Part shown: piece after piece, positions 16,784 to 24,755 of the stretch
Layout: each line of letters begins with the position of its first letter
Numbering within the stretch: position 1 is the stretch's first letter
Program-made: the position numbers and the translations under genes
The notes under the pieces: model-generated
What the model was told of the DNA's origin: nothing
The model's input: only the letters and a program-made list of their open reading frames with translations
Database searches by the model: none
Source: Syntrophomonadaceae bacterium
GTDB taxonomy: Bacteria > Bacillota > Syntrophomonadia > Syntrophomonadales > Syntrophomonadaceae
Direction: 5' to 3'
NCBI GenBank assembly: GCA_012729715.1
Contig: JAAYCQ010000025.1
Span: forward strand, 1 to 33,210
DNA: 33,210 bases

Positions 16784-19003
16784 TCATCCGGTCAGGCTTT
16801 CTGCCTGTTTTTTTCTACCCGTCAAACTGGTAATTACATTCATTATTAACCTGAGACCCAGATCGTCCTGAGCGCTGAGAATGGACTCGGGATGAAATTG
16901 CACTGCAGCAACCGGCAAATGCCGGTGTTCAATTGCCATTACCACATTATCCTCCGACATTGCAGTTACCTTTAGACAATCAGGAATTGATGCCGCACAT
17001 AATGAATGGTAGCGCCCCACCGTAAATTCCTGGGGAATTGCTTCCCACAAGTTTCCTGTTTGTAACCGGCTAACCTTGCTTATTTTACCGTGTTGGGGGT
17101 AATCAAGCACGGCCAACTGACCCCCGAAATATTTAACTACAGCCTGTAAACCCAAACATACCCCGAAAATAGGAATCCCGTTATCCAAACAGCACTGGAT
17201 ACTTTCTTGGGTTTTAAAATCTTTGGGGCGGCCTGGTCCCGGTGAAAGAACTACCAGATCCAGATTCTTGCTTGCCTTTATAATATCAAGTGCTAGATGC
17301 CAGCGGATTACCTCTACCCTGGCTCCGGTTTGGCGGAAGTAATCGGCCAGGGTATGGACAAAAGAATCTTCGTGGTCTACCAGCAGTACCTTCTTTTTCC
17401 GTCCGGGCTGAACTTCTCTTTCTTTGTCCATAGCCATCTCCTTCAAGTTGGTACTGTGTAAAGATTTAATCAGGGCTGCGGCTTTCATGTAAGTCTCAGC
17501 TTCTTCATTTTCGGGAATGGAATCATATAATAACGTAGCCCCGGCTCTAATCTGGGCAATGTTGTGCTTAATGCTAATCGTTCGCAGAGTTAATCCGGTA
17601 TTTAAGTCCCCGTTAAAGGTATAAAAGCCTACTGCTCCCCCGTACCATCCCCGGGGTGAATCTTCGTTTTCCTCCAGCCATTTAATAGCCGCCCTTTTAG
17701 GAGCACCAGTCACAGTTACCGCCCACATATGCGTAAGAAACGCATCCAGGGCATCATAGTTTTCACGCAGGTAACCTTCCACATGGTCAACCGTATGGAT
17801 TACATGAGAATATAACTCGATTTGCCGCCGACCTATTACCCGCACTGAGCCGGGGTCACAGATGCGAGACTTATCGTTGCGGTCAACATCGGTACACATA
17901 GTAAGCTCCGCTTCATCCTTGCTGGAGTTCAACAGGTTTCTAATCTGCACCTCATCTTCCAGGGCATCTTTTCCTCGCTTGATGGTACCGGAGATAGGAC
18001 ATGTTTCCACTCTTTTACCTTCTACCCTGACATACATTTCCGGCGAAGCCCCAACTAAAAACTCTGACCCCAGGTTGATGATAAAACCATAAGGACTGGG
18101 ATTTAGGGTACGAAGCCGGCTAAATACCTGAGAAGGATGGTCCGGACAAGGCTCATAAAGGGTCTGGGATAAAACCACCTCAAACAGTTCACCCTCTTTA
18201 AATGCTTGTTGGGCCAGTTCAACTTTACGAGCATAGCGACCCGGTTGGTGCTGCGGTAACTGTGATACTAAATTGCTGGTATTGGTTTCGTTTATTGGTG
18301 GTAATTCCAGGTTTGCTGCTGCTTCAGGTACAAATGAATAGCTTAGACGGTAAGCCCTTTCCATACGGTGATTTACTACCAGAAGTTTATCCGGCAGGTA
18401 AAGTACCAGATCCCACTGGTCGGAAGAACGTTCCTGCTTTAAATCCATAGGCTCAAACTGAAAAATTAAATCATAGCCAAAAGCCCCATACAATCCTAAA
18501 AAACGATCCTGGTCATCAGCAAGCAGTTCTTTAACTGCTCTGATCACCGAAAATATACTGGCCTGCCGACTGCGCTCTTCTTCTGCAAAAAATGCAGCTT
18601 GCGGTTTTATTTTTCCATATATCACGGGGATACCCCGAAGGGCACCCGCGGTTCTTTTGATATATGAAACCTCAAGCACAGATGTATTGGAAGCCAGGCA
18701 ATGATATATGGGGGATAGCAAACTACTCCCATTGGAATTTAAGGCCTTTATGAAAAATTCTGTTTGCCGTGCTCGTATCTCCAGGCAAGGATCTATAAAC
18801 CCAATATCCCATTGGCTATAACGACCCGGATATTCGTAGCTGCTGGAAAAGAGAGCCCCTTTCTGATGATCAATCTGCTCCAATATATAGTCACTGGCAC
18901 CGATGACTTCAATCTTTTCAACTTCGCGCCGTATTTCAATGCCACATCGGCTGGTATAGCTGCGGGAAGTGAATTCCGTTCCCCCCGGGCTATATTTGTT
19001 CAT
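16784..19003 (-). CDS. trpEG: Fused anthranilate synthase TrpE(G)
   Basis: This 739-residue enzyme makes anthranilate from chorismate and glutamine, joining both subunits in one chain. Residues 1-520 are the chorismate-binding TrpE part: [11 protein letters not shown] near 52-62, PISGTIKRG at 336-344, DVDRNDKSR at 372-380, and VTGAPK at 431-436. Residues 537-730 are a TrpG-type glutaminase with Cys616 (GVCLGLQ), His704 and Glu706 (FHPES). The sequence strongly recalls the TrpE(G) of rhizobia rather than the separate TrpE and TrpG usual in Clostridia. The ATG at 19003 has GGAGAGGAG ahead and overlaps the end of aroF by 14 nt. It is the last gene of the operon, whereas trpE is normally first. 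Confidence 0.95.
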
Positions 19004-19859
19004 AACGTTTCTCCTCTCCACTGGTTCTGGCAGCATAGGTTTTACTAAAGACCGCAGCCTGCTTTCTTAACTCCCCGCTTAAGCAGGCAAAAGCAGCCGG
19101 GGTGATAGATTGAGGCCCATCGGAAAGAGCCTGTTCCGGATTCTGATGTACCTCTATCATCAAACCATCGGCTCCGGCAGCTATAGCCGCCCGGGCTACC
19201 GGTGCTACCAGGGAACGGCGACCGGTCGCATGGCTGGGGTCAACTATGACCGGCAGGTGAGATAGCTCCTTGACCAGGGCGACGGCAGCGATGTCAACCG
19301 TATTACGGGTCATGCCCTCAAAGGTGCGAATACCCCGTTCACATAGTATTACCTCCTGATTACCGGCATCCAGGATATACTCACAGGCCAGGAGCCATTC
19401 TTCAATAGTAGCGGCAAAGCCACGTTTGAGCAGAACCGGGCGTTGTATCCGGCCAACTTCCTTTAACAGGGTGAAATTCTGCATATTGCGGCTGCCGATT
19501 TGAATGATGTCACTATAATAAGCTACCTTCTCCAAATCCCTAACATCAACTACCTCGGTAACTACCGGCAGACCAGTTAGTTCGCGGGCTTCTTTTAATA
19601 TCTTTAAACCCTCTTCCCCCAGGCCGGAAAATGAATACGGCGAGGTTCGAGGTTTGTAAGCCCCTCCGCGTAGAATATGCACTCCCATATTCTTAATTAA
19701 GCCTGCTATTTCCAGGTAACTGTCCCGGGACTCTATCGAGCAGGGTCCCGCTATTATAGTACAATTACCCTCGCCAATATATACCGAACCGTGCGGAGCC
19801 GGAATTTCAATAATGGTTGTATGCTCCCCTCTCCGGCAAGCCAGTTTATACGCTTCCAT
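18990..19859 (-). CDS. aroF: DAHP synthase (3-deoxy-7-phosphoheptulonate synthase), type I beta, core only
   Basis: The enzyme condenses phosphoenolpyruvate and erythrose 4-phosphate, the first step toward chorismate. Core motifs are IAGPCSIES with metal-ligand Cys40, [14 protein letters not shown] at 64-77, LLKRGF and CERGIRTFE. At 289 residues from the ATG at 19859 (GGGAGGGG just ahead), it begins where the catalytic barrel of the Thermotoga-type enzyme begins and lacks the ~60-residue ferredoxin-like regulatory domain. It is thus probably not feedback-inhibited by aromatic amino acids through that domain. It overlaps both neighbours by 14 nt, so its synthesis is tied to trp genes. Confidence 0.94.
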
Positions 19860-20649
19860 GTTTCCCCTCCCTGGCCTTGCCCAATTCCGAAAAGGCCTTT
19901 TCCATTTGCCCGGGTAGCAGCCGGGGACGAGCTTCATACTCCTCAATTATCCGGGCCAGATAACTGCCAACGACTACGGCATCGGCATAATCTCTAAATG
20001 TTTCTACCTGCTGGGGGCCGGATATGCCAAATCCCAGGGCCAGAGGAGTTCTGGTGTCAGTTCTTACCCTTTGCAGATAGTCTATAATTTCTTGTTCGGG
20101 AAGGCTTCTCATCCCAGTTACTCCCCGTACCGATACACAGTAGATAAAAGCCGCCTGCTGCTGGGCTGCCATCTGCACCCTTTCATCGGTACTGCTGGGC
20201 GCCAGCATAGGTATGGGTTCGATGCCATAACCCTTAAGAACATACATCTCATCCAGGGGAAGATCAGGTACTATTAGGCCTTCTATACCCGCGGCCCGAG
20301 CCTCCTGCATAAATTTATCTAATCCCATCCGGTACAGGGGATTATAGTAGGTGAAAAGGATAAGCGGCATATTGCAACTATTCTTAACCCGGTGGGCAAA
20401 TTCCAGGCCCCGCTTTAAATTTAAGCCCTGCTTGGTACCCCGGTGATGAAATCTTTCAATCATTTCCCCATCAGCCAGCGGGTCAGTGAAAGGCACCCCC
20501 AGTTCCAGGATATCGCAGCCGCCCTGCTCCAGGGCTTTGATACAATCCAAACACAAATCCTCATTGGGCAAAAGTCCCATTATAAACGCAATCAAGGCTG
20601 GCTTCTGTTCTTGCTGGTAGTGCAGCATAAGCTTCCTGATTAAAGACAC
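19846..20649 (-). CDS. trpA: Tryptophan synthase alpha subunit, divergent
   Basis: TrpA cleaves indole-3-glycerol phosphate to indole, which passes to TrpB. The catalytic pair sits at Glu49 (DILELGVPF) and Asp60 (DPLADG), the same numbers as in enteric TrpA, and GVTG and GFGIS are kept. Two usually conserved segments differ: the TxGDP-like loop near residue 25 reads FIMGLLPN, and the stretch after DPLADG reads EMIERFHH instead of the usual P-IQ-A pattern. The start is a GTG at 20649 directly after the trpB stop, with AGGAGGTG inside the trpB end. 267 residues, normal length. Confidence 0.92.
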
Positions 20650-21840
20650 TTACAGCACCTCCTGTCTTTCTTCCAGGTACCTGGAGACTTCCTCAGTATC
20701 TTTATCCCCCCGCCCGGAGAGGTTAATAACCAGGCTGCTTTCAGCCGGCAGCTCAGGAGCCATTTTCAAGGCATAAGCTACCGCATGTGCACTTTCCAGG
20801 GCGGGAATAATTCCTTCATATTCACTTAATTTGAGAAAACCGTTTATGGCTTCCTCATCACTGACATTAACATAACTAACCCGCCCGTTTTCACGCAGGT
20901 AGGTATGTTCCGGTCCTACCCCGGGGTAATCCAAACCGGCGGAAATAGAATGGGTATCAAGTATCTGCCCATTTTCATCCTGTAACAACCGGCTCAAAGC
21001 TCCATGCAAAATGCCGTCATCGCCTTGGGCCAGAGTAGCACAGTGTTCTCCCGGGCTAATCCCCCGTCCTCCGGCTTCCACCCCTATAAGTTTTACCTCT
21101 TCCTTTAGAAATGGGTAAAATACGCCGATAGCATTACTCCCTCCGCCTACGCAGGCTAATATATAGGAAGGAAGTCGGCCTTCTAAATTCTTAAACTGTT
21201 CTTTTAATTCCCGCCCGATAACGGACTGAAAATCACGTACCATCATCGGATACGGGTGCGGCCCTACCGCTGAGCCAATCAGCATATGAGAGTATTCAAA
21301 GCTCTGGATAAAATCGCGAAAGGCTTCGTTGGTAGCATCTTTTAGAGTCTGGCTGCCTTTACTAACCTCTTTTACCTCGGCTCCCAGCATCCGCATACGA
21401 AAAACATTGAGCCGTTGTCTTTGCATATCCCGAGCACCCATATATACCGTACATTTCATTCCCAGAACTGCTGCTGCTGTAGCCGTTGCTACCCCGTGCT
21501 GTCCGGCCCCGGTTTCCGCAATCAGGCGCTCCTTCCCCATCCTTTTAGCCAGTAAAGCCTGCCCCAGGGTATTGTTTATCTTGTGTGAGCCGGTATGATT
21601 GAGGTCTTCTCGTTTAAGATATATACGGGCTCCAAACTCCCGGCTCAGCCGTTGGCATAAATACAGGGGTGATTCCCGACCCACATAGTGTTTCAGGTAA
21701 TAATTAATTTCTTCTTGGAATTCAGGGTCAACTGATAACTGCCTATAGGCCTGTTCTATCTTATCCAGGGCAGGTATAAGGGTTTCCGGAACGAACCTGC
21801 CGCCATAGCGTCCGTAGTAACCTTTTTCATTGGGGTACAT
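20650..21840 (-). CDS. trpB: Tryptophan synthase beta subunit
   Basis: TrpB joins indole and serine to tryptophan with pyridoxal phosphate. Starting at the ATG at 21840 the PLP lysine is Lys87 (HTGSHKINN) and the catalytic Glu is Glu109 (AETGAGQHG), exactly the numbering of enteric TrpB. The phosphate loop GGGSNAIG is present. Length 396. This start is preferred over the ATG two codons upstream because AGGAGG is nine bases away rather than three. It overlaps the end of trpF by 14 nt and is a TrpB1-type chain, expected to pair with TrpA. Confidence 0.97.
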
Positions 21841-22453
21841 TAGCATCTGCCTCCTTTACTTCTCTAATAAATGCTTCTATTAATAAAGGGTCTTTACCAC
21901 CCCGGGGATATTCCACTCCACTGGAAACATCTACCGCCAGGGGCTGTAACCTTCTTATAGCCCTTCCTACATTGTCGGCATTAAGCCCGCCCGCCAGAAT
22001 GAACCTTATCTCCCGTGGAAGTCCCTTCAGCCATTCCCAGTTAAAAGTTTGGCCACTGCCACCCCGTACCGTGGTACTGAAGGTGTCAAATAAATAAATG
22101 TAAGGTCGCCATCGCCTGAAGTGCTCGGGGTCAGGAGAACCGGTCAGGGAAAAGCATTTTATAACCGGTAGCTTTAACTCCTCCACATACTCAGGGGGTT
22201 CATCCCCATGCAGCTGTACCATATCCAGCCTGCATAGCTTCGCTATACGTTCTACTTCCTCCAATTTTTCATTTACAAATACCCCGATTTTCATAATGCT
22301 GCCATTAAGGGTACGGTTGATAGCTGCCGCTTCTTCTACCCCTATCTGGCGCGGGGAAGGAGCAAATACCTCGCCTATGGCCCAGGTACCATACCTTGCG
22401 GCGCAAACCGCTTCCTCTAGATTTTTAATTCCACATATCTTAACCAGGGTCAT
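21827..22453 (-). CDS. trpF: Phosphoribosylanthranilate isomerase
   Basis: TrpF performs the Amadori rearrangement of phosphoribosylanthranilate to CdRP. The protein of 208 residues begins [10 protein letters not shown] with the general-base Cys7, and carries the acid Asp in AVDVSSGVE near residue 180 and LAGGLN. The ATG at 22453 has GGGAGGG nine bases ahead; six further upstream codons are open but unlikely. A REP-like palindrome (22471-22504) sits immediately upstream of the ribosome site, making this the only loose junction in the trp operon. Confidence 0.95.
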
Positions 22454-22470
22454 AACTGTTTTCCCTCCCA

Positions 22471-22504
22471 TGAGGTGACATAGGAACCGTCCCCTGTCAC
22501 CTCA
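22471..22504. repeat. REP-like palindrome, intact copy, within the trp operon
   Basis: Perfect 10-bp arms TGAGGTGACA (22471-22480) and TGTCACCTCA (22495-22504) flank a centre containing GGAACCGTCCCC. A second copy upstream of the operon is interrupted by a MITE (24766-24954). Lying between trpC and trpF just ahead of the trpF ribosome site, its hairpin could affect trpF expression or mRNA stability. Confidence 0.7.
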
Positions 22505-22520
22505 ACAGTAAAATGAATTC

Positions 22521-23297
22521 TTAATTTACGTTCTGATGGCCCAAGAGTTCCCGCAATTTCTCTCCGGGGTCGGGGGCTGTGACCAGGGCTTCTCCTACCA
22601 AAACGGCATTATAGCCGTGTTCCTTAAGCAACTGGATATCCTCCCGATTCTTAATACCGCTCTCGCTCACTTTTATAAACGACGAGGGGATATGTTCCGC
22701 TAAATCCAGGCTCCGGTGAACATCTACCGAGAAATCTTTCAGGTTGCGATTATTAACCCCCAGCATTTTTACGGGAAGGTCTTTAGCTTTTTGCAACTCC
22801 TCCTGGTCATGCACCTCCAGTAAAACTTGCAATCCCAGTTCCCGGCTCTTTTCGCTCAAAGCTAACAGTTTGAAGTAATCGTGCAGGGCAGCTATAAGCA
22901 GTACCATATCGGCCTGCAGCAAAACGGTTTCATAAAGCTGTATTTCATCGATAATAAATTCTTTACGTAAAACCGGTAAGCTCGAGATTTCCTTAACCCG
23001 GGGCAGACGTTCTTTTTGGCCTTGAAAAAATTGGCTGTCAGTAATATAGGAAATAGCAGTTGCGCCATTTTCTCGGTAGCAAGCGGCCAATTTCAGCACA
23101 TCCTGTTCATTGGCCAGTATCCCTTTAACCGGGGAAGCTTTCTTGACTTCTGCAATTATGGCCATATTTTTAAAATCGCTTCTGAAGATATTTTCAACAT
23201 CCAGGGGATGCTGACAGGGAATTATATCATCTACAGTTAAGCTGTTTTTTAACTCCTGCACTTCCTGCCGCTTAGCCCTGATTATTTGCTCTAACAT
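22521..23297 (-). CDS. trpC: Indole-3-glycerol phosphate synthase
   Basis: TrpC closes the indole ring from CdRP. The 258-residue TIM barrel has IIAEVKKASPVKG (residues 48-59, catalytic Lys), LRKEFIIDE, GVNNRNLKDF and VSESGI. Its ATG overlaps the trpD stop by 7 nt and is preceded by GGGTGA. There is no fused TrpF, unlike the enteric form. Confidence 0.96.
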   Translation of the reverse strand: MLEQIIRAKRQEVQELKNSLTVDDIIPCQHPLDVENIFRSDFKNMAIIAEVKKASPVKGILANEQDVLKLAACYRENGATAISYITDSQFFQGQKERLPRVKEISSLPVLRKEFIIDEIQLYETVLLQADMVLLIAALHDYFKLLALSEKSRELGLQVLLEVHDQEELQKAKDLPVKMLGVNNRNLKDFSVDVHRSLDLAEHIPSSFIKVSESGIKNREDIQLLKEHGYNAVLVGEALVTAPDPGEKLRELLGHQNVN

Positions 23298-24313
23298 GGT
23301 ATCACCCGGTCACGGCTGTAGCTAACCATAGCCTGGAGGGTAGCCTTGGTTTTCCCTGAATCTATGGCTTCAGCAGCAACAAGCATGCCTTCCTCCATAT
23401 CGCGGGCCCGACCTGCTGCCATCAATGCAGCAGCGGCATTCAGGATTACCACCTGGCGGTAAGGGCCGGGTACTCCTGCAAATATATCCCAAGTAATTCT
23501 GGCATTGCTTTCTTTATCTCCACCCTGGATAGCTTCCAACCCCATGGGCACCATGCCCAGAGTGGCGGGGTTAATAGTATAAGTTTGTTGCTGCTCCAAT
23601 CCGGCATCAAAAACCCGGGTCACACCAATAGGGCTTATTTCATCCATACCATTTTCCGCACATACCACCAGAGCCCGTTTTCGACCCAGTTGCAGTAAAG
23701 TCTGCCCAACGGCCTCCTGCAAGTTGGCATCCGCTATACCCATAACCTGATAAGTCAGGGGATAAGGATTAAGCAACGGACCCAGGAAGTTGAAAATCGT
23801 AGCTACTCCGATTCCCCGCCGCAGCGGTCCCAGTTGCTTCAAAATGGGATGGTAATTAGGGGCAAATAAAAAGGTGATTCCAACCTTATCTAACATCCGC
23901 TGGGCTTCGTCAGGATTAAGTTGAATGTTTACCCCCAGTGCTTCCAATAAATCAGCACTACCCACCTTCCCGGTGACGGCCCGGTTACCATGTTTGGCGA
24001 CCGGGACCCCGCAGCTGGCTACTACCAGAGCAGCAGCAGTGGATATATTGAAGGTCCCCAAACCATCTCCTCCGGTACCACAGGTATCTATCAGTTCCAA
24101 ATCACTGTCCATAGTAACTGCTTCTTCAAACAGGGCCTGAACGAATCCACCCAACTCGGCAGCGCTTTCCTTGCGAGTACGCAGGGCACTCAAAAGAGCT
24201 GCCGCCTTAATCTCAGGAATACTGTCATGTAGAAGCATGCGAGCAGTTAAATAAGCCTCTTCGTTATTGAGATATTCTCCTCCCACGACATTTTTAAGAT
24301 AACGGTCAAACAT
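23291..24313 (-). CDS. trpD: Anthranilate phosphoribosyltransferase, first structural gene of the operon
   Basis: TrpD transfers phosphoribose from PRPP to anthranilate. The 340-residue protein shows DTCGTGGDG (residues 76-84) and KHGNRAVTGKVGSAD (107-121), the PRPP and anthranilate binding motifs, and is a stand-alone TrpD without a glutaminase. The ATG at 24313 is chosen because GGAGAGG lies five bases ahead; a ten-codon upstream extension would consist of translated regulatory repeats. Those repeats (24319-24351) look like a TRAP site overlapping the ribosome site. Confidence 0.96.
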   Translation of the reverse strand: MFDRYLKNVVGGEYLNNEEAYLTARMLLHDSIPEIKAAALLSALRTRKESAAELGGFVQALFEEAVTMDSDLELIDTCGTGGDGLGTFNISTAAALVVASCGVPVAKHGNRAVTGKVGSADLLEALGVNIQLNPDEAQRMLDKVGITFLFAPNYHPILKQLGPLRRGIGVATIFNFLGPLLNPYPLTYQVMGIADANLQEAVGQTLLQLGRKRALVVCAENGMDEISPIGVTRVFDAGLEQQQTYTINPATLGMVPMGLEAIQGGDKESNARITWDIFAGVPGPYRQVVILNAAAALMAAGRARDMEEGMLVAAEAIDSGKTKATLQAMVSYSRDRVIPC

Positions 24314-24318
24314 AAAAC

Positions 24319-24351
24319 CTCTCCTCTCCTCATCTAATCTCATCTGTTCTC
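24319..24351 (-). promoter_or_regulatory. Putative TRAP binding site II, overlapping the trpD ribosome site
   Basis: Seven triplets on the minus strand start every five bases without exception: GAG (24351), CAG (24346), GAG (24341), TAG (24336), GAG (24331), GAG (24326), GAG (24321), each separated by two bases, mostly AT or GA. TRAP binds GAG/UAG repeats spaced by 2-3 nt. The last two triplets form the trpD Shine-Dalgarno, so bound TRAP would block the ribosome, as is known at B. subtilis trpG. Confidence 0.75.
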
Positions 24352-24360
24352 ATCGGTGGT

Positions 24361-24654
24361 TTACCATCGTTCCAGCCCACCATCGTGATTGGTTACATAG
24401 CTCAGGTGATATAGGGGAATATTGCGCTCGATAATTGTGTTAGCAGCATTGAGAAATGGTTGAGAAGAATAGCAATCTAATGCAAACCCAGGCTGGGTTT
24501 GCTCACAGGAGGATATATTGCAGGGAGTAAAAAATGGCAACAAAATGAGACCACCGTCCCCAGCAGTTTTAGTTGCATCATTATTTGTAATCAAAGGAAA
24601 ATAAAAACCAGCACGACACAATGTGCTGGTCACTATACAATCAGACCGGCTCAT
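24361..24654 (-). CDS. Possible 97-residue leader open reading frame, unrecognised
   Basis: An open frame fills the ~240 bases between the attenuator and trpD. It would start with an ATG lying between the last two triplets of TRAP site I and end with Trp-stop just ahead of site II. The product has cysteines at 6, 13, 45, 50 and 61 and resembles no family I know; it is not like TRAP or anti-TRAP. Against it: the frame runs through the terminator hairpin, contains a perfect inverted repeat (24482-24502), and lacks a well-spaced ribosome site other than the repeats themselves. It may be a regulated leader gene, a gene remnant or chance. Confidence 0.22.
   Translation of the reverse strand: MSRSDCIVTSTLCRAGFYFPLITNNDATKTAGDGGLILLPFFTPCNISSCEQTQPGFALDCYSSQPFLNAANTIIERNIPLYHLSYVTNHDGGLERW
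24482..24502. repeat. Perfect inverted repeat in the trp leader
   Basis: GCAAACCCAG and CTGGGTTTGC flank a single base, allowing an 8-bp hairpin with a 5-base loop in the leader RNA. No U tract follows on the minus strand, so it is not a classical terminator. It lies midway between the attenuator and trpD. Confidence 0.5.
24598..24630 (-). terminator. trp operon attenuator (intrinsic terminator)
   Basis: On the minus strand ACCAGCAC (24630-24623) pairs perfectly with GTGCTGGT (24614-24607) around an eight-base loop, followed by a T-rich run interrupted by one A. It lies 20 bases after TRAP site I and about 285 bases before trpD. The segment 24650-24644 (GCCGGTC), which overlaps the last GAG triplet, can pair with 24631-24625 (GACCAGC) with one mismatch. 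That alternative antiterminator would consume the 5' arm of the terminator. Confidence 0.8.
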
Positions 24655-24692
24655 CTCGTCTCTCTTCTCCTCAACTTTACTCTTCTCATCTC
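24650..24692 (-). promoter_or_regulatory. Putative TRAP binding site I (attenuation)
   Basis: Nine triplets start at exactly five-base steps on the minus strand: 24692, 24687, 24682 (GAG), 24677 (AAG), 24672 (GAG), 24667 (GAA), 24662, 24657 and 24652 (GAG). The Bacillus trp leader carries eleven such GAG/UAG repeats for the 11-subunit TRAP ring. Here the last triplet overlaps the proposed antiterminator arm, so tryptophan-loaded TRAP would free the terminator. Confidence 0.78.
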
Positions 24693-24726
24693 ATAAATTA
24701 TATGCTATTAACTTGTAGATAATGTA

Positions 24727-24755
24727 AATCTAATCCATAGTTGGGTATTTGTCAA
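24727..24755 (-). promoter_or_regulatory. trp operon promoter
   Basis: A consensus -35 TTGACA (24750-24755) and a -10 TAGATT (24727-24732) are separated by 17 bases on the minus strand. Transcription would begin near 24720, leaving about 28 bases before TRAP site I. A TATAAT at 24697-24702 is an alternative -10, but it has no -35 at a good distance. Confidence 0.65.

Follow-up and report, generated by a model that had tools for sequence, protein, structure and literature searches.

The trp operon carried by the window (the whole stretch of 33,210 nucleotides of Syntrophomonadaceae DNA analysed here) raises the question of whether one transcript is controlled by TRAP at two separate sites, once by attenuation and once by a block on ribosomes. 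TRAP, a textbook regulator, has been described almost exclusively in Bacillus. In B. subtilis, it is established that TRAP acts both by attenuation and by blocking ribosomes, on separate transcripts or via one site with RNA refolding (PMC3913778, PMC11255114, PMC4347634). Our analysis makes it very likely that the locus is a two-level, tryptophan-responsive TRAP RNA switch, with termination at a first site and a block of trpD translation at a second one, TRAP binding being inferred in the absence of binding, expression or termination data. The operon lies entirely on the minus strand and its order is as follows: the first structural gene is trpD, coding for an anthranilate phosphoribosyltransferase (23291..24313; PF00591, PF02885), followed by trpC (22521..23297; PF00218), which shares 7 nt with the 3' end of trpD, trpF (21827..22471; PF00697), trpB (20650..21846; PF00291), trpA (19846..20649; PF00290), an aroF-type DAHP synthase gene (18990..19946; TIGR01361), whose listed TTG start overlaps trpA and whose true start is probably further downstream, and, as last gene, a fused trpEG coding for a clade-3 anthranilate synthase (16784..19036; TIGR01815 TrpE-clade3, NCBIfam).

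Two phased runs of triplets are present upstream of trpD on the minus strand, and they are the only such runs in the window when both strands are scanned. The first one, putative TRAP site 1 (24692-24650), is composed of nine positions at an exact 5-nt period with all spacers of 2 nt, namely GAG GAG GAG AAG GAG GAA GAG GAG GAG (seven GAG, one AAG and one GAA), its last triplet overlapping the ATG of a leader open reading frame (ORF). The second one, putative TRAP site 2 (24351-24319), is composed of seven NAG triplets at the same exact period, namely GAG CAG GAG TAG GAG GAG GAG (7/7 NAG, six of them G/UAG); it covers the trpD Shine-Dalgarno sequence, runs just upstream of it and ends shortly before the trpD ATG at 24313. 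Among 900 windows simulated with Markov models of orders 1-3, no seven-position run reached 7 and no nine-position run reached 8; base shuffling gave P=0 of 20,000 within site 1 and P=5e-5 within site 2. No fold is predicted for the region of site 2, which appears unstructured (fold z +0.8), and a second RNA structure at this place was rejected for this reason.

Site 1 lies below a predicted promoter (24755-24727, minus strand), with a -35 box TTGACA (24755-24750), a 17-nt spacer and a -10 box TAGATT (24732-24727). It is the sole match in the window to TTGACA-N16-18-TANANT, a pattern that 24 of 100 shuffled sequences also hold, and the TTGACA is kept at the same position in relatives. Site 1 is followed by an intrinsic terminator (24631-24597, minus strand), which consists of a stem GACCAGCAC/GTGCTGGTT (24631-24606) with an 8-nt loop and a U-rich tail and sits in codons 8-16 of the leader ORF. 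In an alignment of 20 leaders, 99.4% of the cells of this stem are paired and three pairs have changed on both sides. An antiterminator (24660-24615, minus strand) is formed by pairing of a 5' strand (24660-24644) with 24631-24615, so that the two structures are mutually exclusive; in the leader alignment, 81% of its cells are paired vs 27-42% in slid controls. This 5' strand overlaps the triplets, including the last two of them together with the start codon of the ORF, and bound TRAP should therefore disrupt the antiterminator, as in B. subtilis (PMC3913778). Rfam matched nothing in the window, a T-box included; ten T-box matches are found elsewhere in the genome and none on the contig of the window. 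A T-box regulated trp operon was consequently rejected, there being no T-box in the leader.

An earlier note, made from the sequence alone, had described both runs, with a TTGACA promoter upstream of them, a terminator with an overlapping antiterminator, and seven triplets over the trpD ribosome site; all of these held, the terminator and antiterminator being both present and conserved in the leader comparison. The existence of the runs, their coordinates, their exact 5-nt phase and the improbability of a chance origin were likewise upheld by the window scan and the simulations. The count of nine NAG plus one GAA at site 1 was too high by one (eight NAG and one GAA), and the sixteen triplets said to show no phase slip are indeed 16 positions in exact phase, 15 of them being NAG. 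The proposal of an attenuator and a translation block acting on one transcript is supported, TRAP binding being inferred and not shown.

TRAP itself is encoded in the genome. A search retrieved a single mtrB gene (E 5e-40; L001:1480-1734), whose product, 84 aa long in its MtrB-like form, scores above the NCBIfam MtrB equivalog cut-off and matches 15 distinct solved TRAP sequences. The RNA-contacting residues of B. subtilis TRAP are K37, K56 and R58; their counterparts in the translated protein lie in the motifs EKL and AMKIRG. The mtrB gene was found in 40 of the 61 genomes searched, and B. subtilis was the only positive among 14 control genomes. No gene reaching the PF15777 cut-off for anti-TRAP (rtpA) was found in the genome. 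One PF15777 match of 28.3 bits, below the cut-off and inside a 399-aa open frame, was rejected as anti-TRAP. A TRAP/anti-TRAP circuit of the B. subtilis type calls for an anti-TRAP gene, and this criterion is not met with the sub-cut-off match alone.

The conservation of site 2 was scored as the best NAG count in seven period-5 positions at most 75 nt upstream of trpD, a phased run being at least 5 of 7 NAG. The comparison covered 45 trpD loci of 44 genomes, among them that of the window. Such a run was present in 27 of the 33 genomes with an mtrB match vs 3 of the 12 loci without one (Fisher P 8e-4). These three loci belong to two incomplete genomes, G022 (67% complete) and G036 (80%, two loci), in which mtrB may simply be missing. 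In a broad control of 78 further trpD loci, bacterial and archaeal, gathered with the TrpD alignment and drawn from unrelated phyla, not near relatives, only four had at least 5 of 7, all in Bacillota and one of them in Desulfotruncus alcoholivorax DSM 16058. The mtrB gene is present in all four of these genomes and absent from all seven control genomes without a run that were checked; it was further found in the two genomes with a 4-of-7 run that were checked, and in one Paenibacillus that has no run. Among the TRAP-encoding relatives that have the attenuator, G013 lacks the trpD site and G031 barely has one, so the second level of control is dispensable. The trpD site of G058 reaches only 4 of 7, and the TRAP genomes G037, G057 and G008 are without it. 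The combination of an attenuator at trpE with a phased run at trpD is common in TRAP-encoding Bacillota outside Bacillus, TRAP binding again being inferred, and the data suggest that TRAP in these other Bacillota usually acts on the trp operon twice, through attenuation at its front end and through occlusion of the ribosome site of trpD.

The origin of site 1 can be traced in relatives. Most of those with this type of leader have the gene order attenuator, trpE, trpG, trpD, and in 11 relatives of the same taxonomic order site 1 lies on the ribosome site of trpE (AGGAG 8-12 nt before the start) and on its start codon, the terminator being inside trpE codons 8-16 and TrpE typically beginning with MSR...TST..RAGFYLP. 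Alternative trpE starts with a Shine-Dalgarno-like stretch are weak and limited to G022 and G015 (codon 36 in each) and G042 (codon 29); initiation of trpE at the ATG of the TRAP site is the simplest reading, albeit an unproved one. In families further removed (G047, G049, G056, G057, G058 and Desulfotruncus), the site and the terminator precede trpE in an ordinary leader. In the genus of the window and in G016, G009, G029, G024, G013 and G031, trpE and trpG are absent from the front of the operon and only the head of trpE is left. A fused TrpEG of high identity (59-100%) is confined to the ten genomes with a truncated front trpE and occurs in no other relative searched, so that the fused enzyme replaced the two front genes, both TRAP sites being largely kept. 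The distance between the two sites is about 300 nt in the window vs about 1.6-2.4 kb in relatives with trpE-trpG between them. The genomes with a truncated trpE are clustered in the TrpD tree, on which two changes are needed; this tree does not prove that the loss arose cleanly just once, nor does it exclude this, given the poor placement of G024. The terminator doubles as coding sequence, and the regulatory element has outlived its gene of origin. As a separate observation, a fused clade-3 TrpEG stands in a Bacillota trp operon in place of separate front trpE and trpG genes and was probably acquired horizontally.

What remains of trpE in the window is the start of a leader ORF of 97 codons (24654..24361, minus strand), preceded by a Shine-Dalgarno-like GAGGAG inside site 1. 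Its first ~21 codons are homologous to the N-terminus of the relatives' TrpE (hhalign, P 8e-8). The ORF has no family match, and no relative of the remaining codons is known. The part past codon ~21 was considered as decayed TrpE, its end ..NHDGGLERW resembling ..GSDNGRYS by eye, but hhalign against TrpE found nothing beyond the first 21 residues, and this interpretation was rejected for lack of signal. The frame is open over 97-103 codons in five genomes, with no stop in 398 codons past the terminator vs 50 in 786 in the other frames, and with a dN/dS after the terminator of about 0.3-0.7. Its conserved end reads HLSYV.NHDGGL[EK]RW, a Trp codon being near the end in 5/5 genomes. Its length and stop position vary, with only 39 codons in G009 and 32 in G029. 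Judging from sequence alone, the leader ORF is likely to be translated.

As regards the other claims of the earlier note, its reading would have been refuted by the absence of mtrB from the genome or its close relatives, or by loss of the 5-nt phase in relatives; mtrB is present in both, and the phasing of the two sites persists across the family and outside it. It had presented the arrangement as one not seen described; other genomes share it. It had missed that site 1 is the head of a former trpE, with the start codon within the TRAP site, and that a conserved leader ORF lies between the two sites.

In the proposed mechanism, when tryptophan is plentiful, TRAP would bind the nascent leader at site 1 and remove the 5' strand of the antiterminator; with the antiterminator lost, the terminator (24631-24606) would form. 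On read-through transcripts, TRAP at site 2 would cover the trpD ribosome site, so that trpD would not be translated, and the tightly packed genes after trpD would perhaps remain untranslated too. When tryptophan is scarce, TRAP would be released, the antiterminator would form and trpD would be translated. Site 1 originated as a site on trpE itself; in the subclade of the window, trpE-trpG was replaced by the fused trpEG that now closes the operon, and the attenuator was kept, now on a short leader ORF. The comparison shows the two sites with their phasing and conservation, the terminator and antiterminator, mtrB, the gene order and the gene replacement. TRAP binding, the dependence on tryptophan and the polarity on downstream genes are inferred, and for ribosome blocking at trpD the position of site 2 is the sole basis.

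Several points could be raised against the two-site reading: a GAA stands in the middle of site 1, and site 2 counts no more than seven triplets, one being CAG, vs 11 in the B. subtilis leader. It could be argued that only site 1 is a TRAP target and that the second run is a long purine-rich Shine-Dalgarno sequence phased by accident, Shine-Dalgarno sequences being GA-rich and trpD being already controlled by the upstream attenuator. However, seven triplets in exact phase extend over 33 nt, far longer than a Shine-Dalgarno sequence, and the run tracks mtrB and is absent from trpD in 74 of the 78 other organisms' loci, the four exceptions all being TRAP genomes, which leaves this explanation very improbable. 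Hardly more credible is a single TRAP ring bridging both sites, or cooperation of the sites by looping. The sites are only ~300 nt apart in the window and each ring offers 11 or 12 pockets (PMC3913778, PMC3435397), but the triplets of the two sites (9 + 7) are too many for a single ring, and the spacing of 1.6-2.4 kb in relatives with trpE-trpG between the sites indicates that proximity is not under selection. That the runs are functionless low-complexity GA repeats can be all but dismissed. Pure AAG or AAAAG repeats do give pattern matches in some genomes (e.g. G048 and G051), but the runs studied here are not simple repeats, their spacers differ, they are found ahead of tryptophan genes in different families, and their conservation contradicts this explanation.

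Less easily set aside, though still unlikely, is the possibility that translation of the leader ORF (of trpE in relatives) is the main switch, ribosomes holding the embedded terminator open and TRAP mainly blocking the ribosome start site. Both the Shine-Dalgarno sequence and the start codon of the ORF do fall within site 1, codons 8-16 hold the terminator, and the frame is open in the five genomes with dN/dS below 1 and a Trp codon near its end in each. Against it, the conserved antiterminator with the last TRAP triplets suffices for classical attenuation, and the ORF varies in length and stop position, down to the 39 and 32 codons of G009 and G029. A bolder reading, which is no more than possible, combines both inputs: in this order of bacteria, the attenuator would be protein-coding, with TRAP across the trpE start, the antiterminator strand and terminator forming trpE codons 2-16, and translation of trpE helping to hold the terminator open; it would have been kept by selection as a translated leader ORF after the replacement of trpE, ribosome traffic being a second input besides TRAP.

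With regard to known systems, the two-level switch favoured here resembles in its first part the leader of B. subtilis trpEDCFBA, where TRAP attenuation involves 11 repeats in a 203-nt leader before trpE (PMC3913778). Both have (G/U)AG triplets with 2-nt spacers below a promoter, an overlapping antiterminator and terminator, and an encoded TRAP. Unlike that leader, site 1 has nine positions, not 11, it reaches the start codon of an ORF, and its terminator is inside a reading frame (the leader ORF here, trpE in relatives). Site 2 resembles the sites through which B. subtilis TRAP blocks ribosome binding at trpG, trpP and ycbK (PMC11255114) in that the triplets overlie the translation initiation region; it differs in that the putative target, trpD, belongs to the trp operon, whose transcript also carries a TRAP attenuator further upstream. 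In B. subtilis, trpE is also controlled at translation, via a Shine-Dalgarno-sequestering hairpin (PMC11255114), which likewise provides a second level on read-through trp transcripts, but with one TRAP site and RNA refolding, whereas here a separate second site lies directly on the ribosome site. Closest in layout is Desulfotruncus alcoholivorax DSM 16058, with an encoded TRAP, a phased trpD site and an attenuator-like site before trpE; there, however, the terminator is before trpE, not inside it, and an additional attenuator-like site precedes trpG. A trpD TRAP site in the trp operon, an intragenic trpE attenuator and its survival after replacement of trpE were not found described in the open-access literature searched, mostly as titles and abstracts; subscription reviews on trp operon evolution were outside this scope, and a prior prediction is possible. 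Relative to that literature, what is new is that the two modes are paired, that the attenuator sits within a gene and that it persisted once that gene had been replaced; each mode by itself is known in B. subtilis.

Other perfect seven-triplet runs in the genome occur at iorA and over the start codon of trpB2, both being indole/tryptophan genes, and the fact that the strong sites fall on such genes argues strongly for TRAP. The data suggest that the TRAP regulon includes trpB2 and indolepyruvate:ferredoxin oxidoreductase. The iorA gene, coding for the alpha subunit of this oxidoreductase (start 2849), is preceded by a TRAP-like site of ~12 triplets (L053:2985-2924, minus strand, contig C152) and then by a GC-rich terminator, and runs upstream of iorA are also present in G002, G016 and G021. 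As inferred from sequence alone, this is probably a second TRAP attenuator, acting on aromatic 2-oxoacid metabolism. At trpB2, seven phased triplets lie over the ribosome site, the start codon and codons 2-5 (MSRAEL) (L054:2310-2342, plus strand, contig C212), some TRAP triplets being therefore protein-coding; this run is conserved in many relatives.

Further TRAP-like elements were observed in other genomes. In Desulfotruncus alcoholivorax (L201), the extra site before trpG has a terminator and lies ~0.7 kb upstream of trpD, which gives three TRAP-like elements in one trp operon. A divergent trpD paralogue in G023 (L218) and G036 (L220) has two TRAP-like runs spaced ~140 nt apart upstream, the first with a terminator; this compact two-site leader may have arisen independently. 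TRAP-like sites also precede genes coding for an ABC substrate-binding protein and a small membrane protein (L250 of G014, L103 of G052), which are candidate tryptophan transporters.
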